Shown here piece by piece: positions 8,629 through 24,736 of a DNA stretch of 64,000 bases. The DNA is from Streptomyces sp. NBC_01275. Its GTDB lineage: Bacteria > Actinomycetota > Actinomycetes > Streptomycetales > Streptomycetaceae. Both the position numbers and the translations under genes were made by a program. Under the pieces are notes generated by a model, which worked only from the letters and a program-made list of their open reading frames with translations, made no database searches and had not been told where the DNA came from. The DNA lies in assembly GCF_026340655.1 (NCBI RefSeq), contig NZ_JAPEOZ010000001.1, positions 8,308,001 through 8,372,000 of the forward strand, read 5' to 3'. The number at the start of each line of letters is the position of its first letter. The stretch's first letter is position 1.

Positions 8629-10831
8629 TCCGGACGTCCCGGTACGAGACCACGTCCGTCGTGCCGTGCACCTGGAGTCCGATATAGCCGGAGGCGAAGC
8701 GTCGCCCGTCCGTGCCCGGGTCGTCCGAACGCGGCGGGGAGAACTCCTGGCCGCCGGTGTTGTCGAACTCGTTGATCAGCACGCCGTTGCGGAAGACCGA
8801 GTAGTGCTGGTCGACCACCCGGATCTCGTAGTCGTTCCAGGCGCCCTTCTGGGTGACGCCGGCCCCGGCCAGCCCCACCCGGTCGAAGCCGTACACCGAC
8901 CCGGTCTTGTACAGGTCTCCGTCGGGCCGGTCCAGGACCTGCACCTCGTGCCCGTACTTGATGGCGACCCACTCCGGACGCGACTCCTCGGGATGGTCGT
9001 GGACCCAGGGGAAGCGCACGAACACACCGGAGTTGGCGTTCCCGGCGCCCGGAGCGTCGTCGCGCCACTGGAGCCGCAGCGAGAAGTCGCCGTACTTGCG
9101 CTGCGGGAACCACAGCATGCCGAGCCCGGCCCTCGTCGTGCCGGACGTGATCGACCCGTCGGCGTTGCGCCCGAACGAACCCCCGCCCACCTGCTCCCAC
9201 CGCGCGAAGGACTCCGCGGTCGCGTCGAGGATCGTGCGATAGCCCTCGGTCTGCCCCGGCGTCCCGATCCCGGACCGCTGGGCCGCCGACTGCACGGCGT
9301 CGCGCTCCCGTTCGTCGAGCACCCCTTCCTTGAACAGCCTGTCCAGGACGGTTCGGACGTGCTTGAGGAACAGCGCCTGGGACGTCCACTCCTTCTCGTC
9401 CTCGATCAACTCGCCGATCCGGCACCGGTTGTCGGTCACCCGGTTGCGCACGCCCGAGTCGACCGTGCCGACGATCACCGTCAACCGCTCGTCGTACTCC
9501 GGGCAGTCGGGTGCGGGCACCCCGCCGCCCGCCACCACCGTGAAGCCGACCGTGCGGGCGGCGGAGGTGTTGCCCGCCCTGTCCACCGCCCGGTACGCCA
9601 CGCTGTGCGTACCGACCCGGCCGACCACCACGGGAGAGGTGTAGGCGAGGTACGGTCCAGCGTCGAGTGAGTACTCGATCCGGTCCACGCCCGAACCGCC
9701 GTGTTCGTCGGTGGCGCTCACGGTCACCTCGGCGTTGCCGACATACGCCCCGTCCGAGTTCCGCGTGCCGTCGACGGTCACCCCCGTCACCGGCGCGGTG
9801 GTGTCCTGCGGAGCCGCCGCGACGACCGTGAACCGCACGCTCCTCTCGGCGGCGGTGTTGCCGGCCTTGTCGGTGGCCCGGTAGCGCACGGTGTGGACGC
9901 CGAGCTGGTGCACCATCACGGGGGCGGTGTACGGCTGCCAGGCCCCGGAGTCGACCGCGTACTCGACGGTGTTGACGCCGGAACCGGCGTCGGAGGCGCT
10001 CACGGTGACCGTCGCCATGTCGACGTAGCTCCCGTCGGCGTTCTGCTCACCGCTCACCGTCGCCGAGGTGTCCGGCGGGGTCGTGTCGTCCGAGGGCGGC
10101 GCGACGACCGTGAACTCGACGCTCTTCTCCGCCGACACGTTGCCCGCCCTGTCGAGCGCGCGGTAGCGGATCTTGTGGCTGCCGACCTGGTCGACGACGA
10201 CGGGCGCGGTATACGGCAGCCAGCCGCCCGTGTCGCCGATCGCATACTGGATGGCGTCGACGCCGGACCCGTCGGCGTCCGTCGCGCTGATCCCGACACT
10301 CGCCGAGCCGACGTAGGCGCCCTGCGCGTTCTGGGCGCCGGTCACCTGCGCCGTCGTCGAGGGCGCAGTCGTGTCCTCGCCGCCGCCCTCGGTCACCACC
10401 AGGGTGCCCTGCATCTGCCCGTGCCCGGGGATCGTGCAGTGGTAGAAGTAGCGGCCCGGAGTGAGCGTGACCTCGGCGGTGTGGCGGCCGCCCCGGTCGT
10501 CGCCCGGGTTGGCGAGGATGTTGAGGGTGACGTCGCTGTTGTACTCGGGGTCGGAGGTCACGAACGTCAACGTGTGCGGCATTCCGGTGGTGTTGCCGGT
10601 CGCCGCGCTGTTCTCGAAGACGATCGTGGCCGTTCCCGCCACGGCGGTCGTGGGCGTCGAGACGTACTTCGTGATGTCGTCGCCCGCGGTCCAGGTGAGG
10701 ACCTGGGCGGCGGCGGCCCGCGCGGGCGCGTCGGTCTGCCCGGCGGCCGGAACCGACTGCGGGCCGAGCAGCAGAAGCAGCGCGGACACCGCGGCCAACA
10801 GGACCGCGCATGTTCCTCGTCGGCGTGTCAC
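8615..10831 (-). CDS. Secreted cupredoxin / Ig-like (OmpL47-type) repeats / DUF1080 protein
   Basis: A 738-residue exported multidomain protein. After a signal peptide (about residues 1-30) comes a cupredoxin domain with type-1 copper ligands His86, Cys132, His137 and Met140 (GMPHTL, YHCTIPGHGQM). Three Ig-like OmpL47-type repeats follow (each with DTTAP/DTTPP, a GSYV or GAYV segment, and AGN), then a linker and a C-terminal DUF1080 (concanavalin-like, 3-keto-glycoside hydrolase family) domain. The GTG start overlaps the upstream gene's TGA, so it is coupled to the ThuA-dehydrogenase gene. Its role may be to take electrons or bind sugars outside the cell; that is inference. Confidence 0.82.
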   Translation of the reverse strand: MTRRRGTCAVLLAAVSALLLLLGPQSVPAAGQTDAPARAAAAQVLTWTAGDDITKYVSTPTTAVAGTATIVFENSAATGNTTGMPHTLTFVTSDPEYNSDVTLNILANPGDDRGGRHTAEVTLTPGRYFYHCTIPGHGQMQGTLVVTEGGGEDTTAPSTTAQVTGAQNAQGAYVGSASVGISATDADGSGVDAIQYAIGDTGGWLPYTAPVVVDQVGSHKIRYRALDRAGNVSAEKSVEFTVVAPPSDDTTPPDTSATVSGEQNADGSYVDMATVTVSASDAGSGVNTVEYAVDSGAWQPYTAPVMVHQLGVHTVRYRATDKAGNTAAERSVRFTVVAAAPQDTTAPVTGVTVDGTRNSDGAYVGNAEVTVSATDEHGGSGVDRIEYSLDAGPYLAYTSPVVVGRVGTHSVAYRAVDRAGNTSAARTVGFTVVAGGGVPAPDCPEYDERLTVIVGTVDSGVRNRVTDNRCRIGELIEDEKEWTSQALFLKHVRTVLDRLFKEGVLDERERDAVQSAAQRSGIGTPGQTEGYRTILDATAESFARWEQVGGGSFGRNADGSITSGTTRAGLGMLWFPQRKYGDFSLRLQWRDDAPGAGNANSGVFVRFPWVHDHPEESRPEWVAIKYGHEVQVLDRPDGDLYKTGSVYGFDRVGLAGAGVTQKGAWNDYEIRVVDQHYSVFRNGVLINEFDNTGGQEFSPPRSDDPGTDGRRFASGYIGLQVHGTTDVVSYRDVRIREL

Positions 10832-17230: not shown

Positions 17231-17236
17231 TAGGAT
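17231..17236 (+). promoter_or_regulatory. Candidate -10 box for the first tRNA-like RNA
   Basis: TAGGAT lies seven bases before position 17243, the first base of the 11-bp closing helix of the RNA that follows. If used, the primary transcript would begin exactly at the base of that helix. No convincing -35 is visible. Confidence 0.35.
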
Positions 17237-17242
17237 CCTCAG

Positions 17243-17324
17243 ACGCGTCCGGGTGTAGCGCAGAGGTAGCCGCACGCCTTGCAAAGGCGGATCACGCCGG
17301 TTCGAATCCGGTCCCCGGACGCGT
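17243..17324 (+). tRNA. tRNA-like RNA 1 (GCA anticodon-like triplet), non-canonical acceptor
   Basis: The T arm is normal (CCGG-TTCGAAT-CCGG, 17297-17311, extended by G17296-T17312). The end helix is not: 17243-17253 pairs perfectly with 17314-17324 over 11 bp, then T17254 bulges and G17255 pairs with C17313. The D stem has three pairs (17258-17260 with 17271-17273) and a C-C mismatch. The anticodon arm is CGCC-TTGCAAA-GGCG, giving GCA (Cys) with U33, but only four stem pairs. No 3' CCA is encoded. A tRNA finder may call it tRNA-Cys; its shape, shared with RNA 3, suggests a tRNA-derived structured RNA. Confidence 0.65.
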
Positions 17325-17328
17325 GCGA

Positions 17329-17400
17329 GGTCCCGTAGAGCAGAGGCAGGCTCACCGCCTTGTCAGGGCGGAGACGCCGGTTCGAATCCGGCCGGGACCA
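17329..17400 (+). tRNA. tRNA-Asp (GTC), divergent extra copy
   Basis: Full cloverleaf of 72 nt: acceptor GGTCCCG (17329-17335) with CGGGACC (17393-17399), D stem GAGC/GCTC, anticodon stem CCGCC/GGCGG with loop TTGTCAG (GTC, Asp), T stem GCCGG/CCGGC with loop TTCGAAT. Only four bases separate it from RNA 1, so they are probably one transcript. The D loop (AGAGGCAG) and T arm are close to RNAs 1 and 3 rather than to ordinary housekeeping tRNAs. The discriminator is A where bacterial tRNA-Asp normally has G73, and CCA is not encoded. Confidence 0.75.
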
Positions 17401-17454
17401 CGACACGGCGAGCACGGGCGGCACGGCGAGCACGGGCGGGGCAGGGCGGGACGG

Positions 17455-19287
17455 ATGGGCGAGGAGAACACCGGCACGATCACCGGACCGGGCACGACGC
17501 CGGTCCCGCGACCGGGCACGACGCCGGTCCCGCGACCGGGCACGACGCCGGTCCCGCGACCGGGCACGACGCCGGTCCCGCGACCGGGCACGACGCCAGT
17601 CCCGCGACCGGGCACTACGGCAGTCCCCGGATCCGACGTCCAGCCGATCGCCGGACCCGGCACCGGGCCGGTTCCCGGATCAACGTCCGGATCGGGTATC
17701 CAGCCGGTCCCCGGACCCGGCGACGAGCCGTTCGACGGGTCCGGCGCCGAAACGGCCGACGGCTCGGCGACCGGGTCGGCCGGCGAGCCGCTCCCCGCAC
17801 CGGCCGTCGGTTCGGCTTCTGGTTCGGCCCCCGGCGCGCCCCCCGCGCCGACCCCGGCATCGGCCGTCGACGTGGCCCCCGCGCCGACCCCCGCACCGGC
17901 GGTCGACGCGGCCCCCGGATCCCCGACCGCCCCGGCTCCCGGACCCCTCGACCCCGCGGAGCTGGCCGCCTTCCACCGGACCGTGGGCAAGCTGCGCGCC
18001 CTGGCCCCTCATGACCCCGTCCGGCTGGAGGCCGAGCAGGTCGCCGCGTCGTTCGCGCGGGACGGGCGGCTGCGGAGGCGCAAGGCGCGCGGCGCGGAGG
18101 TGTCGGCGGCCGACGCCGCGACGATGGCCGCGACCGCGACCGGCGCCCTGGACCGGCGCGAGGACGCGCCGCTGGCCGGCCCCGACACCGACGGCGGGGA
18201 CGGGGGAGGCGTCTTCCAACGGCCCCGCACCTGCTACGTCTGCAAGTCGCCCTATCGGCAGGTCGACGCCTTCTACCACCGGCTCTGTCCCGACTGCGCC
18301 GCGGACAACACCGCCCGCCGCGCCCTGAGCACCGATCTGAGCGGGCGGCGGGCCCTGCTGACCGGCGGACGGGTGAAGATCGGCTTCCAGCTGGCGTTGA
18401 TGCTGCTGCGGGACGGCGCGGAGGTGCTGCTCACCTCCCGGTTCCCGCACGACACCGTGCGCCGCTTCCACGCCGAGCCGGGCAGCGCGAAATGGCTGGA
18501 GCGGCTCACCGTCCTCGCCGTCGACCTGCGCGACCCGCGCCAGGTGCTGGGCCTGTGCGAGGAACTGCGCGCCGAGGGCGAGCCGCTCGACATCCTCGTC
18601 AACAACGCGGCCCAGACCGTACGCCGCCCTCCGCAGTCGTACGCCCTGCTGGCCGCCGGAGAGTACGACGCGCTGCCCGAGGGAGCCCGCCCGGCGCCCG
18701 GGTTCACGCCGATCCGGATGCTGGAGGGGCTGGGCGGCTCCGTCTCCGCCCTGCCGGCCGCCCTCCGCGAGGCCGACGAGGCCGGACTGCTGCCCGACCC
18801 CGCCCCGGAGAACTCCTGGTCGGCCCGGCTCGGCGCGCTCGACCCGGCCGAGGTCCTGGAGACCCAGCTCGTCAACGCCCTCGCCCCCGCACTGCTGTGC
18901 GACCGGCTGCTGCCGCTGCTGCTCGCCTCCCCGCGGCCGCGCCGGTACGTCGTCAACGTGACCGCCGTCGAGGGCCGGTTCGCCGTGCGCAACAAGATGC
19001 CGGGGCACCCGCACACCAACATGGCCAAGGCCGCCCTCAACATGCTCACCCGCACCAGTGCCGCCGAACTCGCCGAGCAGGGCGTCCACATGTGCGCCGT
19101 CGACACCGGCTGGATCACCGACGAGAACCCGGCGCCGAAAAAGGCCCGGATGGCCGGCGCGGGCTTCCGCACCCCGCTCGACATCGTGGACGGCGCGGCC
19201 CGCGTGTACGACCCGATCGTGCGCGGCGAGGCCGGGGACCCGGTGTCGGGCGTGTTCCTGAAGGACTACCGGGAGGCCGAGTGGTGA
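17455..19287 (+). CDS. SDR-fold protein with zinc ribbon and GTTPVPRP repeats (catalytic Tyr missing)
   Basis: A 610-residue protein 54 bp after the tRNA pair. Residues 13-60 are six copies of an eight-residue GTTPVPRP repeat, followed by a long Pro/Ala/Gly-rich region to about 165. A zinc ribbon follows (Cys260, Cys263, Cys278, Cys281). The rest is a Rossmann short-chain-dehydrogenase fold with TGGRVKIG in place of TGxxxGxG and NNAA at 383-386. The usual YxxxK reads Thr521-x3-Lys525 and the catalytic Ser position looks like Thr, so it may bind but not oxidise. It probably works with the ATPase/vWA genes downstream. Function unknown. Confidence 0.75.
   Translation: MGEENTGTITGPGTTPVPRPGTTPVPRPGTTPVPRPGTTPVPRPGTTPVPRPGTTAVPGSDVQPIAGPGTGPVPGSTSGSGIQPVPGPGDEPFDGSGAETADGSATGSAGEPLPAPAVGSASGSAPGAPPAPTPASAVDVAPAPTPAPAVDAAPGSPTAPAPGPLDPAELAAFHRTVGKLRALAPHDPVRLEAEQVAASFARDGRLRRRKARGAEVSAADAATMAATATGALDRREDAPLAGPDTDGGDGGGVFQRPRTCYVCKSPYRQVDAFYHRLCPDCAADNTARRALSTDLSGRRALLTGGRVKIGFQLALMLLRDGAEVLLTSRFPHDTVRRFHAEPGSAKWLERLTVLAVDLRDPRQVLGLCEELRAEGEPLDILVNNAAQTVRRPPQSYALLAAGEYDALPEGARPAPGFTPIRMLEGLGGSVSALPAALREADEAGLLPDPAPENSWSARLGALDPAEVLETQLVNALAPALLCDRLLPLLLASPRPRRYVVNVTAVEGRFAVRNKMPGHPHTNMAKAALNMLTRTSAAELAEQGVHMCAVDTGWITDENPAPKKARMAGAGFRTPLDIVDGAARVYDPIVRGEAGDPVSGVFLKDYREAEW
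17491..17634 (+). repeat. 24-bp in-frame tandem repeat, six copies
   Basis: Units of 24 bp starting at 17491, 17515, 17539, 17563, 17587 and 17611 encode GTTPVPRP five times and then GTTAVPGS. The first four are nearly identical, so copy number may vary between strains. Confidence 0.9.
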
Positions 19288-19333
19288 CGCGGACACCGGA
19301 AACGGGACGCGAGCCGTATCCCCGGCGCCGTGC

Positions 19334-21157
19334 TCAGCGCCGTATGCCCGTGAACACCTCCATCCAGAACCGCTGTTGCTGCTCCGACGCACCCACCAGG
19401 TAGGTCGCCCGCAGCTTCGGCGGCAGACAGGCCACCAGCCGGGTCACCGCCGAGCGGTGCTTGCGCAGCTGGGACAGCTCCGCGTTGGCGAGGATCTGGT
19501 GGACGACGTCGCTGTCGTCGCCGCCCTCGTCGGAGAGGGCGGCGGCGCGGCGCAGCCGGGACTCCCACGCGTCCACGTCCCGGGCGAGCTCGCGCAGGCC
19601 CGTGACCGGGCGGCCCCGGAAGCGGTCCAGCAGGGCGGTCAGCGGCACGGGCGCGTACTCCCCGTCGCCGAGGTAGACCGTCGCCATCTCCAAAGGCAGC
19701 CCGCGCCGGTGCAGCTTGATCAGCCGCTCCAGGGTGCGTTTGGTGATCCAGGCGCGACCCTCCTCGTCGATGTCGTGCTTCCACCACTCCAGGACCGTCT
19801 CCGCGTCCGCGCCGTACCGCGCCAGCAGCCACTCGTTGGCCGGGATGTCCTGCGGCGCCACCTCCAGCGAGGCCGTGAACCGGGTCGCCTGCGCGATGTT
19901 GTTCCGTGACACCAGCAGCTTGCGGCCCAGGTGGTACGGCGGGTTCTGCACGGCTATCTGCGCCCGCAGGTTCTCGATCCGCCGCCCGGCCAGCGACCAC
20001 TCCTGGGTGATCTCCATGAGCTTGGCGAACGCGGCCTTGTCCTTGGGCCGGTTGTACTCGTCCCACACGATCGCCTTGGGCTCGGCCCCGGTGAACCTCG
20101 CCGCCAGGAGGTTGTCCAGCGTGCCGTCGGAGGAGGGCACCGGCGCGCACAGGTCCTCGACGTTGGTCACCGGCAGCGAGAAGTACAGGGCGTCCCGGCC
20201 CAGCCCGTCGCGGACCGTCTCCCGCACCAGTTCCGTCTTGCCGCACCCGGGCGGCCCCTGCAACAGCACCGTCCAGCGGTTGCGCAGCGCCGCCCGCACC
20301 ACCTGCCGTACCGGGTCGGGGATCGTGGCCGGGTTCGGGACGCCCAGCGCCTGGGCGAGGCGGTCGAGGATCTCGGCCGTGCGGTTCTGGCCGGGCCGGC
20401 CGTCGGGCCCGCGCTCGGCCAGTCGCAGCCGCTCGCCGTCCACCAGGGGCAGACCCCAGCGCAGCGGGAAGCCCTCCCGGGCGTTGGCCAGGACGTGGTC
20501 GAGGGTGCGCGGGGACAGCAGCTCGCGCAGGGCGGGGGAGAGCGAAGCCCACAGGGCGAACACCGGACGCAGGTCCCAGGGGCGGTACTTGGCCGTCAGA
20601 TGCCGCCGCCAGGAGGTGTCGTTGGCGGTGATCCGCATCGTGACCATACGGTCCAGGAGCGCGAGGTCGCTGCGCCGGGCCGAGGTCTCCGCCAGCGACT
20701 CGTTGTCCGTGAGGAAGACGCCGACGCAGCCCAGGGCGCGCAGGTCGTGCTCGCCGAGCGTCCAGTCGCAGGCGATCTGCATCAGCTGCGACTGGATGGT
20801 GTCGCCCGCCTGCAGCGAGTCGTCGATGAGCAGCACGAACGGCCGGCCCGGCTTCAACTGGCTCATCACCAGCTGCCGCAGCACGAGTTCACCCGTGCGC
20901 GGGTCGCGCACCGGCGCGTTGACGAGCAGGTCGTCCGGCGTAAGGTTCGCCGCCGGCACGTACACCAGCTCGGTGTCCGGACGGGTCCGGGCGAGGTACG
21001 AGAAGAACGTCGACGTCTTGCCGATGCCGTGCTCGCCGAAGACCTGGCCGGTCTGGCCCAGGTCGATCATCGCGTCGACGAAGGCCTCGAGGCGCGAGAC
21101 CTCGACGGGCGCGGGCGGCTGCCCGGCGTCGCTCGGGTGCCGTGTCTGCGTGCTCAT
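19334..21157 (-). CDS. MoxR-type ATPase with two AAA modules
   Basis: A 607-residue ATPase that is unusual in carrying two complete AAA modules. Module 1 has Walker A GEHGIGKT (41-48) and Walker B VLLIDD (108-113). Module 2 has Walker A GPPGCGKT (301-308) and Walker B AIVWDE (362-367). Ordinary MoxR proteins have one. MoxR ATPases act as chaperones that act on vWA-domain partners to mature or remodel targets, and a vWA gene lies directly upstream (40-bp gap). GGGGAC precedes the ATG, duplicated in a short repeat. It is convergent with the SDR-like gene. Confidence 0.85.
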   Translation of the reverse strand: MSTQTRHPSDAGQPPAPVEVSRLEAFVDAMIDLGQTGQVFGEHGIGKTSTFFSYLARTRPDTELVYVPAANLTPDDLLVNAPVRDPRTGELVLRQLVMSQLKPGRPFVLLIDDSLQAGDTIQSQLMQIACDWTLGEHDLRALGCVGVFLTDNESLAETSARRSDLALLDRMVTMRITANDTSWRRHLTAKYRPWDLRPVFALWASLSPALRELLSPRTLDHVLANAREGFPLRWGLPLVDGERLRLAERGPDGRPGQNRTAEILDRLAQALGVPNPATIPDPVRQVVRAALRNRWTVLLQGPPGCGKTELVRETVRDGLGRDALYFSLPVTNVEDLCAPVPSSDGTLDNLLAARFTGAEPKAIVWDEYNRPKDKAAFAKLMEITQEWSLAGRRIENLRAQIAVQNPPYHLGRKLLVSRNNIAQATRFTASLEVAPQDIPANEWLLARYGADAETVLEWWKHDIDEEGRAWITKRTLERLIKLHRRGLPLEMATVYLGDGEYAPVPLTALLDRFRGRPVTGLRELARDVDAWESRLRRAAALSDEGGDDSDVVHQILANAELSQLRKHRSAVTRLVACLPPKLRATYLVGASEQQQRFWMEVFTGIRR

Positions 21158-21197
21158 GTCCCCATGTCCCCATGTCTCCGTATGTCTCCGTGCTCGT

Positions 21198-22610
21198 CTA
21201 CCGGGATCCCGTGGTCACGCGATGGCAGGCCATCGCCGGGGTGTGCGTCTCGGGCCACTCGTCGCCGTGCTCGGTGATCAGCCAGATCCAGCTGTCCGGC
21301 TCGGCCGGGGTGATCGGCGGCGCGTAGCCGTCGGTGAGGACGACCACCGCGTCCGGAGTCACGTCGAATCGACGGCCGTCGACCTCCGTACGCCCCTCGA
21401 CGTAGTCCGCGACGGCCTGGAAGCTCGTGCCGCCGCCGCCGTACACCCGCTCGCCCGGTTTGAAGGGCGTCACCACGGCGTCGAAGGACAGCCAGTGCGC
21501 CTGCACGCCGTCGATCCGGCCGACCAGGTCGGTGAGCCAGCCGATCACGTGGTCCGGCATCGACCCCGAGGTGTCGTACGCGATGACCAGCACCTTCTCG
21601 CGGACCGGGCCGCGTCGCGCCAGCATCGGGTCCTGGCCGAGGGCGGCCAGCAGCGCGCCGCGCTTCTTCGGGTACACCAGCCGCTCGCCTTCGCGCAGGC
21701 GCGAACCGAGCACGTCGACCAGCCAGCGCTGCCACCAGTCGACCGTCCGCGTCCGCGCCGTCTCCCCGCGCAGCGCGCCGGCCCCCAGGCTGCCCCAGAG
21801 CCGGGCGGCCCGCGCCGAGTCGCCCTCCGTGCGGCCCATGAGGTCCAGCAGCTCGCGTTCCGCGCCCGCGTGCCCGCGCCGGGCCGCCAGCAGGGAGTTG
21901 AGCAGCGCCGAGGACGTCACCGCGTCGACGGTCTCCTGGTCGGCGGGGACCAGGCCGTCCACCAGGTGCACGCACAGCCGCCGTTCGGGAACCGGAGGGC
22001 GGTGCATGCGCTTCAGCTCGCCGTACACCCTCATGTCGGTCTCGGTGAACGTCGGGTACTCCACCGGCTCCAGGCCGTGCGCCGTGAGGTCCTCGACGTA
22101 GGCGTCGTACACCCGGCGCGGGTCGACGCCGGTGGGGCGGCCGTCCAGCAGCGGCAGGTCCGCGCGGTCGAGCCGGACCAGGGCCACATGGTTGATGGAC
22201 ACCTCGGCGGCCAGGGTGAACACCGGGTCCTCGCGCAGCTCCGGCTCGGCGAGCAGATGCCGGTGCACCAGATGCCGGGCCTCGTGGAACAGGACGAACT
22301 TGACGCCTTCCAGGCCCAGTCCGACGAAGAAGCCGGGGTTGTAGAGCAGCAGACAGACGCCGTCGCCGGAGGCGACCACAGCGGCCGTGTCCACGGCTGT
22401 CGTAGGGATCTGGTGGCGGCACTTGGCGTACAGCCAGGACGCGACCGCCGACTCGGTCAGCCCGAAGTCCAGCAGGGCGGCCTCCTTCAGCCGCCGCGCC
22501 TCCTCGACGACCTCCGGGTCCGCCGGCCGGTACGCCTCGAGCGCCCGGCGGTCGGCGAGGTCGACCACCAGAGGGCGTCGCCGCCCCGGCTCCCGCTCCC
22601 CGTACGCCAT
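21198..22610 (-). CDS. Metallopeptidase-like HExxH + vWA (DUF2201-type) protein
   Basis: A 470-residue protein with two parts. The N-terminal half holds a zincin-type HEARH (109-113, in FVLFHEARHLVHRHL). The C-terminal half is a vWA domain with an intact MIDAS: DTSGS (346-350), Thr395 (GGGGTS) and Asp427 (LTDGYA). This order is that of the DUF2201/VWA-like metallopeptidase family. The ATG at 22610 has GGGGGC six bases upstream. It is the probable partner of the tandem-AAA ATPase that follows. Whether it cuts protein or serves as a scaffold cannot be told. Confidence 0.82.
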   Translation of the reverse strand: MAYGEREPGRRRPLVVDLADRRALEAYRPADPEVVEEARRLKEAALLDFGLTESAVASWLYAKCRHQIPTTAVDTAAVVASGDGVCLLLYNPGFFVGLGLEGVKFVLFHEARHLVHRHLLAEPELREDPVFTLAAEVSINHVALVRLDRADLPLLDGRPTGVDPRRVYDAYVEDLTAHGLEPVEYPTFTETDMRVYGELKRMHRPPVPERRLCVHLVDGLVPADQETVDAVTSSALLNSLLAARRGHAGAERELLDLMGRTEGDSARAARLWGSLGAGALRGETARTRTVDWWQRWLVDVLGSRLREGERLVYPKKRGALLAALGQDPMLARRGPVREKVLVIAYDTSGSMPDHVIGWLTDLVGRIDGVQAHWLSFDAVVTPFKPGERVYGGGGTSFQAVADYVEGRTEVDGRRFDVTPDAVVVLTDGYAPPITPAEPDSWIWLITEHGDEWPETHTPAMACHRVTTGSR

Positions 22611-22708
22611 GTCCAGCCCCCGTGTGTCCCCCGTGCGGTGCTTCCCCCAGTGCCTCATTGGTAGCAGGCCGCACTGACAACGGGCCAAGGCATTACGCTC
22701 TGCGGCAA

Positions 22709-22787
22709 GGGCGGGGCCGTAGCGCAGAGGCAGCCGCATCGGTCTCCAGAACCGGATCACGCTGGTTCGAATCCAGCCGCCCCGCCC
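22709..22787 (+). tRNA. tRNA-like RNA 3 (CCA anticodon-like triplet), non-canonical acceptor
   Basis: Same architecture as RNA 1. The end helix GGGCGGGGC (22709-22717) pairs with 22779-22787 over 9 bp; C22718 bulges and G22719 pairs with C22778. The D stem has three pairs plus a C-C mismatch, the D loop is AGAGGCAG, the variable loop ATCAC is identical to RNA 1, and the T arm is GCTGG-TTCGAAT-CCAGC. The anticodon loop CTCCAGA reads CCA (Trp). The acceptor is unlike normal tRNA-Trp (A1-U72, G73) and no CCA tail is encoded. It lies on the strand opposite to the flanking protein genes. Confidence 0.65.
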
Positions 22788-22840
22788 CCCCCTCAGCCCC
22801 GCCCCCTCGACCCGCTCAGCCCCTCGGCCCCTGCGCTCGT

Positions 22841-23677
22841 TCAGGCGATGGCGCCCGCGGTCGTCACCAGCTCCGGCGTCGTCCCGTGGAACGTCTCGAT
22901 GAGCTGGGCCAGCACCGCCCAGGCCTCCTCGCGCTCGCCCAAGTGGTCCCGGACGAGCGGGCGCAGGGCGTGTTCGGCGTCGCGGACGCGGGCCGGGAAC
23001 ATCGCGTGGCCCATGGAAAGGACCTCCAGGACGCGGACGGCCGGGCCGTAGGCCGTCGCGTACGCGGCCGCTCCGTCGAGGACGCCGGCCTGGCGCACCC
23101 GGTGCGTGAACTTGGGGTGCGAGCCGAACCGCGCGCGCAGCGCGGGCGGACAGTCCGGGCGTACGGACAGCACCCAGCGCGTGTATCCGGGCAGTGGACG
23201 CTCGCCGTCCGCCTCGCTGACCGCGGACCAGTCGTCCCGGGTCAGCACCATCGACCCAGCCGCCCGCGCCGTGGGCATGGAGCCCGCCTCGCGCAGGGCG
23301 CCGACGAGGCCGTGACGGACGTAGCTCTCGGGGATCTCGGGTTCCTGGCCCCGCAGCGCGGAAGGCACCCGCAGGGGCTTCGTGCGGCCGGGGCCGAAGG
23401 GCACGCCCCGGGCCATGGCGCGTCGCAGGCCGATGTCGGCGCCGACGAAGCGCCACACGACGGCGTTCAGGTCGGGATCGTCCTGCTCCAGGACCCACAG
23501 GACCACGGAAGCCGGCACGGGGGGCCAGTTCCACACCCGGTCGATTCTGCGGCGGGCCGCCTCGGGGCCGTCGGGCGCGGGCAGGCCGATCCGTGTCCGG
23601 ATCCGGGCGGCGGCGTCCTCGTCGGTCAGCCCGAGCAGGAAGTCGACCGCCTGCCGGACCGTGTCGCTGTAGCGCAT
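22841..23677 (-). CDS. Uncharacterised conserved-type protein upstream of the vWA gene
   Basis: A 278-residue soluble protein I do not recognise. It is mostly helical, Ala/Arg-rich, with no signal peptide or transmembrane segment and no clear catalytic motif. Features that could define a family are WNWPPVPASVVLWVLEQDDPDLNAVVWRF and the closing LIETFHGTTPELV. The ATG at 23677 is chosen over 23713 by length of conserved-looking sequence; no strong ribosome binding site is visible. It is on the same strand as the vWA and AAA genes, with tRNA-like RNA 3 between, so it is a candidate fourth protein of that locus. Confidence 0.65.
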   Translation of the reverse strand: MRYSDTVRQAVDFLLGLTDEDAAARIRTRIGLPAPDGPEAARRRIDRVWNWPPVPASVVLWVLEQDDPDLNAVVWRFVGADIGLRRAMARGVPFGPGRTKPLRVPSALRGQEPEIPESYVRHGLVGALREAGSMPTARAAGSMVLTRDDWSAVSEADGERPLPGYTRWVLSVRPDCPPALRARFGSHPKFTHRVRQAGVLDGAAAYATAYGPAVRVLEVLSMGHAMFPARVRDAEHALRPLVRDHLGEREEAWAVLAQLIETFHGTTPELVTTAGAIA

Positions 23678-23761: not shown

Positions 23762-24736
23762 TCAGCCGGCCGCGCGCGCCGCCATCCGCGCCTTGCGCGT
23801 CGCCAGCTTCTCGTCGAACTTGGAGGCCTCCGAGTCGAGACCGCCCATGTACAGGCCGATCTCCTCCTGCGCCTTCTGTCCCTCGGGGCCCAGACCGTCG
23901 ACGTCCATGACCTTCAGGAAGCGCAGCACGGGCTGGATGACGTCGTCGTGGTGGATGCGCAGGTTGTAGACCTCGCCGATCGCCATCTGCGCGGCGAACC
24001 GCTCGAAGCCGGGCATGCCGTGACCGGGCATCCGGAAGTTGACGAGGACGTCGCGCACGGCCTGCATGGTCAGGTCGGGGGCCAGCTCGAACGCGGCCTT
24101 CAGGAGGTTGCGGTAGAAGACCATGTGGAGGTTCTCGTCGGTCGCGATGCGGGCCAGCATGCGGTCGCAGACCGGGTCGCCCGACTGGTGGCCGGTGTTG
24201 CGGTGCGAGACGCGGGTGGCCAGCTCCTGGAAGGCGACGTACGCGACCGAGTGCAGCATCGAGTGCCGGTTGTCCGACTCGAAGCCCTCGCTCATGTGCT
24301 GCATGCGGAACGCTTCGAGCTTGTCCGGGTCCACCGCGCGCGAGGCGAGCAGGTAGTCGCGCATCACGATGCCGTGCCGGCCCTCCTCCGCCGTCCAGCG
24401 GTGCACCCAGGTGCCCCAGGCGCCGTCCCGGCCGAAGAGCGAGGCGATCTCGTGGTGGTAGCTGGGCAGGTTGTCCTCGGTGAGCAGGTTCACGACCAGC
24501 GCGATCCGCCCGATCTCGGTGACCTTGGACTGCCCCTTCTCCCAGGCCTCGCCGTCCTCGAAGAAGCCGGGGAAGTTACGGCCGTCGCTCCACGGCACGT
24601 ACTCGTGGGGCATCCAGTCCTTGGTGACCTTGAGGTGCCGGTTGAGTTCCTGCTCGACGACTTCCTCCAGCGCGTACAGCAGCTTGGCGTCGGTCCAGAC
24701 TGCGGGGCTGCCGAGGTGAGGGGAAGTGATCGTCAC
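23762..24736 (-). CDS. Acyl-ACP desaturase (soluble di-iron, stearoyl-ACP type)
   Basis: Introduces a double bond into ACP-bound fatty acids using a ferritin-like di-iron centre. Iron-ligand motifs are visible: a first-helix glutamate near residue 87, EEGRH (117-121) and DENLH (200-204). The 324-residue length fits DesA-type desaturases of actinobacteria. It stands alone. The upstream region has four 15-bp iterons that look like operator sites, so regulation by membrane lipid state is likely. Confidence 0.93.
   Translation of the reverse strand: MTITSPHLGSPAVWTDAKLLYALEEVVEQELNRHLKVTKDWMPHEYVPWSDGRNFPGFFEDGEAWEKGQSKVTEIGRIALVVNLLTEDNLPSYHHEIASLFGRDGAWGTWVHRWTAEEGRHGIVMRDYLLASRAVDPDKLEAFRMQHMSEGFESDNRHSMLHSVAYVAFQELATRVSHRNTGHQSGDPVCDRMLARIATDENLHMVFYRNLLKAAFELAPDLTMQAVRDVLVNFRMPGHGMPGFERFAAQMAIGEVYNLRIHHDDVIQPVLRFLKVMDVDGLGPEGQKAQEEIGLYMGGLDSEASKFDEKLATRKARMAARAAG

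Follow-up and report, generated by a model that had tools for sequence, protein, structure and literature searches.

tRNA-like RNAs with a near-constant body and switching anticodons beside a zinc-ribbon SDR-like gene in Streptomyces and related actinobacteria

The tRNA-like RNAs and the genes around them

A stretch of 64,000 nucleotides from Streptomyces sp. NBC_01275 (contig NZ_JAPEOZ010000001.1, positions 8,308,001 to 8,372,000; hereafter the window) carries three tRNA-like RNA genes around a zinc-ribbon protein related to the short-chain dehydrogenases/reductases (SDR), a MoxR-type ATPase and a protein with HExxH and von Willebrand factor A (vWA) motifs, with a fourth, 290-aa protein beyond them (Table 1). 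Comparison with relatives showed, at the level of sequence, RNAs of constant body and switching anticodon that are genetically tied to the SDR-like protein, in which the catalytic Tyr is missing; as judged from gene neighbourhoods, the RNA–SDR pair is often accompanied by the ATPase, HExxH/vWA, leucine-rich repeat (LRR) and all-helical proteins. The initial annotation of this DNA did not mention the most unusual feature, namely that anticodons switch and are hardly repeated while the body stays constant.

ARAGORN called all three RNAs on the forward strand, as tRNA-Cys(gca) at 17247–17322, tRNA-Asp(gtc) at 17329–17401 and tRNA-Trp(cca) at 22711–22788, and 3/3 passed the gathering score of 29 of the Rfam tRNA model (RF00005) with 30.6, 62.5 and 41.5 bits, respectively. 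By minimum-energy folding only the middle RNA came out as a cloverleaf, the first departing from it in the D-arm and the third throughout, and the cloverleaf is therefore based on ARAGORN, Rfam and the family alignment. A pattern of the shared D- and T-arms matched exactly three places in the 10.4 Mb genome, all in the window, with no match to the reversed control, and three of the 76 tRNA matches genome-wide were the window RNAs. The relatedness of the three RNAs and their common loop sequences, both proposed in the initial annotation, were thus confirmed, and the wider end that it had given to the first RNA coincides with the 11-bp outer helix. Dispersal of the family through the genome was rejected, 3/3 pattern matches lying within the window. 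The slot-A RNA of the window has A73 whereas host tRNA-Asp has G73, and the slot-C RNA has a bulge ahead of the D-arm and is divergent from the vWA gene.

Table 1. Features of the cluster, in window coordinates
Feature	Position	Strand	Basis or remark
Slot-B tRNA-like RNA, anticodon loop GCA (Cys type), 11-bp outer helix	17243..17324	+	ARAGORN, Rfam, fold
Slot-A tRNA-like RNA, anticodon loop GTC (Asp type), 7-bp acceptor, A73	17329..17400	+	ARAGORN, Rfam
SDR-like protein, CxxC zinc ribbon	17455..19287	+	Conserved part from ~17959; Thr replaces catalytic Tyr (HPHTNMAKAA)
Candidate remnant of LRR gene start	19283..19322	+	Similar start VT..PETG.EP
MoxR-type double AAA ATPase, 607 aa, two Walker A motifs	19334..21157	-	Pfam AAA_5
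DUF2201_N HExxH metallopeptidase-like + vWA (MIDAS) protein, 470 aa	21198..22610	-	Pfam + motifs
Slot-C tRNA-like RNA, anticodon loop CCA (Trp type), extended acceptor helix	22709..22789	+	ARAGORN, Rfam
Fourth protein, 290 aa	22841..23713	-	Predicted all-helical model, mean pLDDT 90.4

The constancy of the body was quantified on 173 RNAs from the relatives described below, that is, 178 pattern matches less five lone RNAs with a GAGGTAG D-loop (L101, L111–L114). Slots A, B and C were assigned by sequence, slot B being mixed, and the slot analyses exclude five Catenulisporales RNAs (L050–L054). Per-site entropy was 0.20–0.21 bits in the D-arm and 0.04–0.24 in the T-arm; at the anticodon it was 0.88 (slot A), 1.35 (slot B) and 0.37 (slot C), and in the remainder of the anticodon arm 0.63, 1.23 and 0.63. 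A helix of at least 10 bp, one defect allowed, was found in 47/76 slot-B RNAs (29% with shuffled flanks) and 24/40 slot-C RNAs (8%), and in 15/52 slot-A RNAs, which equals the shuffled level (28%); among host tRNAs the count was 6/64. Slot A accordingly has the 7-bp acceptor of canonical bacterial tRNAs, and slots B and C depart from it. Two Catenulispora RNAs (L050, L053) keep the body intact with a predicted 14-nt loop in place of the 7-nt anticodon loop; that of L051, from Catenulispora/Catenulisporales, folds differently from both.

The protein calls of the initial annotation also stood. The SDR-like protein matched Pfam adh_short (2.2e-16) and has a CxxC...CxxC zinc ribbon, which was present in 82/83 members of its family; Thr replaces the catalytic Tyr of YxxxK in 82/83 as well, the exception being a fragment (L090), and alignment to the solved SDRs 3woh and 4lvu supports the Thr-for-Tyr register. 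Its start is uncertain, 610 aa from the ATG at 17455 comparing with 441–491 aa in the 120 relatives listed, and PGTTPVPR-type repeats lie within the possible N-terminal extension (17480–17640). The ATPase has two Walker A motifs in 83/84 copies; ‘MoxR’ is the label given by the initial annotation and by us, the Pfam match being AAA_5. In full-length copies of the DUF2201_N protein HExxH was found in 77/77 and DxSGS in 71/77, the vWA part being assigned from its own (MIDAS) motifs and not from a Pfam match. The 290-aa protein had no match in Pfam, NCBIfam or PADLOC; for the SDR-like protein NCBIfam gave SDR matches that fell well short of the cut-off, and for the other four proteins none.

Linkage of the RNAs to the SDR-like gene

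Loci L001–L080 were collected from GTDB genomes by similarity to the ATPase (best 80 of 110), which under-samples clusters retaining the SDR gene only; counts on 81 loci include the window and, as the loci come from related species, are not counts of independent events. RNAs were found in ten genera among the 80 loci (Streptomyces, Actinacidiphila, Kitasatospora, Streptacidiphilus, Saccharothrix, Lentzea, Kibdelosporangium, Amycolatopsis, Actinospica and Catenulispora). The recurrent order in Streptomyces was 290-aa gene, RNA, vWA, ATPase, (LRR gene), SDR, RNA, RNA, which occurred whole or partial elsewhere. With SDR identity of at least 59%, a threshold chosen after the data were seen, SDR and RNA by pattern were both present at 51 of the 81 loci and both absent at 27, one locus having the SDR only and two the RNA only. 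The single SDR-only locus (L070) does carry an RNA, which escaped the regular expression but was called by ARAGORN and by the family model R1 and included on that basis, giving RNA in 52/52 SDR loci. At the RNA-only locus L064 the contig stops ∼0.6 kb past the ATPase, and the other, the metagenome contig L051, had no SDR match in the ∼3 kb beyond its RNA. Short contigs are among the 27 loci with neither (L059, L063, L078 and L012, the last of these carrying the LRR gene). In Nonomuraea and Actinomadura (six loci) an SDR of 55–58% identity sits between vWA and ATPase and the RNA is absent.

Of 199 Streptomyces genomes, 24 carry the SDR orthologue (at least 660 bits), 18 the ATPase (E 1e-60) and 21 a match to the RNA pattern. 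Patterns were used for these counts because R1 is unable to tell the family from ordinary tRNAs in whole genomes: it matched 199/199 genomes at E 1e-11, including two places (L096, L097) near 75 bits where no cluster genes lie. The patterns overlook diverged members such as those of G526 (L090) and L070. RNAs with a GAGGCAG body accounted for 17 of the 21 pattern-positive genomes, and 17/17 hold the SDR orthologue (∼2 expected by chance); the remaining four comprise three lone GAGGTAG RNAs (G416, G461, G497) and a spurious match (G577). The RNA was present in 8/8 genomes with both ATPase and SDR (the ATPase of G511 being partial), in 9/16 where the SDR was found and no ATPase was called (one of these, G432, retains a fragment of the ATPase), and in 0/10 with the ATPase but no SDR. 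The full ATPase, vWA and 290-aa genes were missing beside SDR and RNA in L083–L089, L091, L098, L100 and L102; of these, L086 retains a piece of the ATPase gene and L100 a match to the 290-aa gene. The fetched regions L103–L109 have the SDR and no RNA.

The linkage of RNAs and proteins recurs in relatives and a role coupled to the proteins is likely. The initial annotation had asked whether the RNA always stands beside the ATPase/vWA pair; it does not, and a tie to that pair as such was rejected on the 9/16 and 0/10 counts. The firmly most constant partner of the RNA is the zinc-ribbon SDR-like protein. On an SDR tree built by a quick method RNA presence changed only 4 times, and an independent-pairs test of RNA against ATPase presence gave no more than 1 supported pair. 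In a class-wide draw of 394 genomes the RNA was found by pattern in 7/40 Streptomyces and 0/354 others, so that the distribution of the family is patchy. WhiB and desaturase genes flank 30 of the 36 Streptomyces SDR loci in L001–L080.

The initial annotation had likewise left the SDR as most constant partner and the LRR gene unmentioned. The latter follows the SDR in 39/52 SDR+RNA loci (40 of L001–L080 when L012 is counted; 49 of the 117 sequences searched) and is missing in the window, where no LRR match was obtained at E 1e-10; to judge from its similar start, the short segment listed in Table 1 is possibly the leftover first codons of that gene.

Several diverged or displaced members were also seen. 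G526, with diverged RNAs and a broken SDR, was missed by both the SDR and the RNA searches; its locus (L090, 9219–10486) is a decaying copy in which the SDR matches in pieces and the RNA T-loops are altered. The RNA of L099 (G252), at 9777, lies ∼9 kb from an SDR gene, apparently on the same contig as L031, so RNA–SDR spacing can exceed that of other loci. Lone GAGGTAG D-loop RNAs, relatives of the family, occur at L101 (9454), L111 (7921), L112 (7586), L113 (8862), L114 (7544) and L158, with no cluster gene in the fetched stretches, four of which end at most 1.5 kb from the RNA at a contig end; those of L113 and L114 adjoin helicases with HA repeats. Scattered homologues had been named in the initial annotation as evidence against a joint system: the homologues found are mostly linked, and these lone relatives are the part that is not. 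An SDR paralogue (46–49% identity; L115, L116, L117) shares the zinc ribbon and the HPHTNMAKAA motif, with no RNA found nearby, and further SDR matches of ∼50% are common in Streptomyces.

Anticodon exchange, host-like arms and charging signals

Anticodons were compared in close pairs, in which the SDRs of the two loci share 90% identity or more and no locus is used twice. This and the tree and independent-pairs tests used one RNA per locus and slot, with slot-B CCA rows excluded; six anticodons read GAC, among them those of L006, L011, L019 and L049 where ARAGORN has GCT, and were recoded to GCT in the SDR-tree and independent-pairs tests and kept as GAC in the close-pair comparison. The anticodon differed in 12/16 close pairs for slot A, 11/17 for slot B and 1/13 for slot C. 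Slot-A differences per site fell from 0.271 at the anticodon through 0.121 in the arm and 0.071 in the acceptor to 0.030 in the D-arm and 0.022 in the T-arm; L004 and L006, with SDRs 98% identical, have the same slot-A D-arm, T-arm and acceptor, and the anticodons GTC and CTC, respectively. On the SDR tree slot A required 26 anticodon changes, as many as shuffled labels (mean 25.2), and slot B 26 against a shuffled mean of 30.7 (5/200 as low), slot-B anticodons being less independent of phylogeny than those of slot A. Ordinary tRNA genes seldom differ in anticodon from one species to a close relative, and the exchange in slot A on a nearly still body looks like diversifying selection at the anticodon.

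The anticodons seen were mostly CCA, GTC, GCC, CTC, GGC, GCT, GCA and CGC. Within genomes they were almost never repeated: a single repeat was found among 159 RNAs of 54 genomes with at least two RNAs, compared with 11.2 expected from shuffling within slots (0/2000 as low), 11.4 on unique sequence sets and 9.5 on unique anticodon sets (0/5000 each). Without slot C the non-redundancy was weaker, with 1 against 6.6 (22/5000, unique sequence sets) or 5.9 (46/5000, unique anticodon sets).

The arms resemble those of host tRNAs with the same anticodon, host arms here being those of the window strain (67 host tRNAs for arm identity and 64 for charging and acceptor, of 73 outside the window). Over 92 unique arms, 8.91 of 14 positions agreed with the host arm of the same anticodon versus 7.46 for shuffled labels (0/2000), and 2.78 versus 2.43 at the four loop positions (0/2000); for the loop positions alone, random host anticodons did as well in 1/2000. 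Eleven of 165 RNAs agreed with a window-strain arm at all of 17 nt, namely five with Glu-CTC, five with Asp-GTC and one with Ala-GGC.

Charging signals were scored by identity rules that are mainly those of E. coli. In a strict 7-bp parse of slots A and B, G3:U70 with A73 was found in 1/26 Ala types, U73 in 0/6 Cys and 1/21 Gly types, G73 in 2/9 Trp, 3/11 Ser and 15/25 Asp types, and A73 in 9/20 Glu types; a lenient parse of all slots gave Ala 1/27, Cys 1/10, Gly 5/23 and Trp 5/42. Host controls followed the rules in Ser 4/4, Cys 2/2, Asp 2/2, Glu 4/4 and Trp 1/1. The GCT-labelled RNAs had a variable loop of 4–5 nt in 11/11 cases, not the long arm of tRNA-Ser. By these rules the identity elements for the amino acid of the anticodon appear to be mostly missing in Ala, Cys, Gly and Trp types and partly present in Asp and Glu types. 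Ordinary tRNA drift was rejected on the constant body, the switching and non-redundant anticodons and the absent charging signals.

A published relative, known systems and possible functions

The tRNA-Asp-AUC of Streptomyces SPC6 and S. collinus (NAR 2022) is, by sequence, an apparent relative of the family. It was reported in 32 of 4649 streptomycete genomes, with no homologue elsewhere and a single anticodon, in a conserved cluster with a MoxR-like ATPase; it is expressed, 97% of reads showing A at position 34, and was interpreted as a codon-bias tRNA (PMC9262613). Its primers carry the D-arm TAGCGCAGAGG and T-arm GTTCGAATCC of the present family as well as GTTCGAATCCGAC, and its 3' neighbours, described as a gala leucine-rich protein, a PE-PGRS protein, a MoxR-like ATPase and a conserved hypothetical protein, fit respectively the LRR, Pro/Gly-rich SDR, ATPase and HExxH/vWA proteins found here (PMC9262613). 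The PGTTPVPR-type repeats of the window are perhaps what that paper named PE-PGRS. One primer ends in GAGGT, as in slot B of the window and in the lone GAGGTAG group, so that the published RNA could belong to either. The slot-A RNA of L089 has the published anticodon ATC and C33; the tRNA-Asp-AUC gene itself was not found in 392 Streptomyces genomes, the sole match having another anticodon arm. The RNA family, its other anticodons, the SDR link and the other genera, which are described here, go unreported in the available parts of that paper (PMC9262613), and no description of the family or of the SDR link was found in the literature searched, most subscription papers and bioRxiv's own collection lying outside its coverage.

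Four known systems resemble parts of the cluster. Rsr (Ro60) with the Y RNAs YrlA and YrlB stands in an rtcBA RNA-repair operon (PMC7790460). It likewise places a tRNA-like RNA beside a vWA-fold protein in bacteria, and the initial annotation had drawn this parallel. In contrast, no TROVE domain turned up when nine window proteins were scanned with Pfam at E 0.01, and RtcA and RtcB were also absent from the nine; moreover, several RNAs with different anticodon arms occur here and their linkage follows the SDR, and the Ro60/Y RNA system was not retained. MoxR-vWA ternary conflict systems of multicellular actinobacteria combine a MoxR-type ATPase and a vWA protein with variable partners (PMC7159879), a pairing also present here; unlike theirs as described, the vWA protein of this cluster begins with a DUF2201_N HExxH domain, and tRNA is mentioned once in the main text of that paper. 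No VMAP or iSTAND match was obtained with Pfam in the neighbours, models for these not having been run. SDR5C1 of human mitochondrial RNase P is an SDR with a non-enzymatic role in a tRNA-handling complex (PMC10602865), an analogy drawn at the level of the SDR fold. Finally, phage tRNAs evade anticodon nucleases, which are thought to have shaped their anticodon loops (PMC10264068); they are said to escape through altered loops, whereas the present arms are host-like, chromosomal and have their own proteins.

We tentatively favour, at well below even confidence, the view that the RNAs act as bait, or decoys, for tRNA-attacking enzymes. The SDR would be a scaffold without enzymatic role that binds the RNAs through their constant elbow and acceptor regions, and the RNAs would display anticodon arms copied from or converging on those of host tRNAs, with few repeated isoacceptors, to nucleases aimed at the anticodon or toxins that modify tRNAs, whether these come from competitors or from phages. 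The anticodon arm would be the working end, with the ATPase, HExxH/vWA and LRR proteins acting downstream or protecting it; a cut or engaged bait might be sensed or removed by the ATPase–HExxH/vWA pair, and titration alone could explain strains with just RNAs and SDR. Anticodons would switch fast because the attackers do. A more specific form, held a little more tentatively, is a host-encoded and diversifying panel of baits, one protein-bound body with rapidly exchanged arms on which attack is absorbed or sensed, the mimics being guarded by a non-enzymatic SDR scaffold and an ATPase–HExxH/vWA machine.

A number of observations weigh against bait function. Contact with a nuclease, toxin or phage is something that we infer, and PADLOC gives the ATPase weak matches only. 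The SDR orthologue occurs without RNA in 7/24 genomes, and the six distant SDRs (55–58%; L066, L067, L074–L077), which fall among the 27 loci with neither, lack it as well. The anticodons stand for a restricted group of amino acids (mainly Asp, Glu, Gly, Ala, Ser-GCT, Cys and Trp), and the near fixation of slot C, CCA in 33/40, is unexplained by baits. The cognate host arm is strictly the best match in just 29/165 RNAs; host-like arms and U33 would also be expected of decoding tRNAs, U33 being found in 157/173 arms, a count inflated by an arm finder that favours U33 and a purine at 37. Charging is partly provided for, with A73 in 9/20 Glu types in the strict and 14/20 in the lenient parse, and G73, needed by tRNA-Asp, in 11/20 slot-A GTC members; moreover, the parser itself recovers the rules in only 4/5 Gly and 2/4 Ala host controls. 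Furthermore, the SPC6 tRNA-Asp-AUC helped production of a GAU-rich eGFP in S. coelicolor (PMC9262613), and at least one relative may thus decode.

That the RNAs are accessory decoding tRNAs is nearly as likely as bait function, and the two stand close because the apparent relative is reported to decode. They would be charged and would decode or mis-decode Asp, Glu, Gly, Ala, Ser, Cys and Trp codons, perhaps with one or two amino acids loaded by an enzyme reading the constant body, the proteins controlling charging or turnover. The expression and GAU decoding reported for tRNA-Asp-AUC, whose primers and neighbours fit the cluster (PMC9262613), agree with this, as do ATC and C33 in L089, the host-like arms, the narrow anticodon set and G73 in part of the slot-A GTC members. 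It is less easily reconciled with the charging signals mostly missing from Ala, Cys, Gly and Trp types, the GCT-labelled RNAs devoid of a long arm, the often longer acceptor helices of slots B and C and the Catenulispora members without a 7-nt anticodon loop; the window strain, besides, already owns tRNAs with all three window anticodons, and the words ‘aminoacyl’, ‘charged’ and ‘charging’ are absent from the main text of the 2022 paper (PMC9262613).

The neighbourhood of oxidoreductase-like and metallopeptidase-like folds and the restricted amino-acid set would also suit RNAs that serve as substrates or donors in a modification pathway, the SDR and HExxH/vWA–ATPase proteins acting on carried amino acids or modified bases and the anticodon only setting which amino acid is loaded. 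We regard this as improbable in view of the Thr in place of the catalytic Tyr, the charging signals mostly missing and the SDRs kept without RNA. Still less probable is a Y-RNA-like scaffold, in which the body tethers or gates an RNA-quality machine of vWA and ATPase proteins and the anticodon arm has no direct task: a constant body beside a vWA protein and the enlarged Catenulispora loops agree with it, but no TROVE domain was found in the nine proteins, the RNA follows the SDR when the ATPase is not called and not the reverse, and an idle arm would not be expected to remain host-like and non-redundant. Passenger tRNAs of an old integrative element, or drifting copies without joint function, are very unlikely. 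An integrative origin was suggested for the gene cluster in the 2022 paper, tRNA genes being common integration sites (PMC9262613), and pieces are often lost and lone GAGGTAG relatives exist; against this stand the shared WhiB and desaturase flanks, the near-constant D- and T-arms, the non-redundant anticodons and the spread over ten genera.

If bait function holds, bacteria would possess a tRNA-mimic arm of immunity; if decoding does, the family would be a rapidly tuned missense or codon-bias device. The published antibiotic-enhancing tRNA might be reinterpreted, and either answer is testable in a common laboratory genus.

Elsewhere in the window genome, two adjacent odd tRNA calls (Ser cga and Cys gca; L152, G000:C1:4900074-4900223) have unusual T-arms and fall outside the family, and a second, low-scoring tRNA-Trp(cca) gene (39 bits; L081, G000:C1:7943590-7943665) lies away from the cluster. 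An Rfam match to the ASdes sRNA (69.5 bits) at window positions 24318–24385 (+), antisense inside a fatty acid desaturase gene, is probably conserved coding sequence and not an sRNA.

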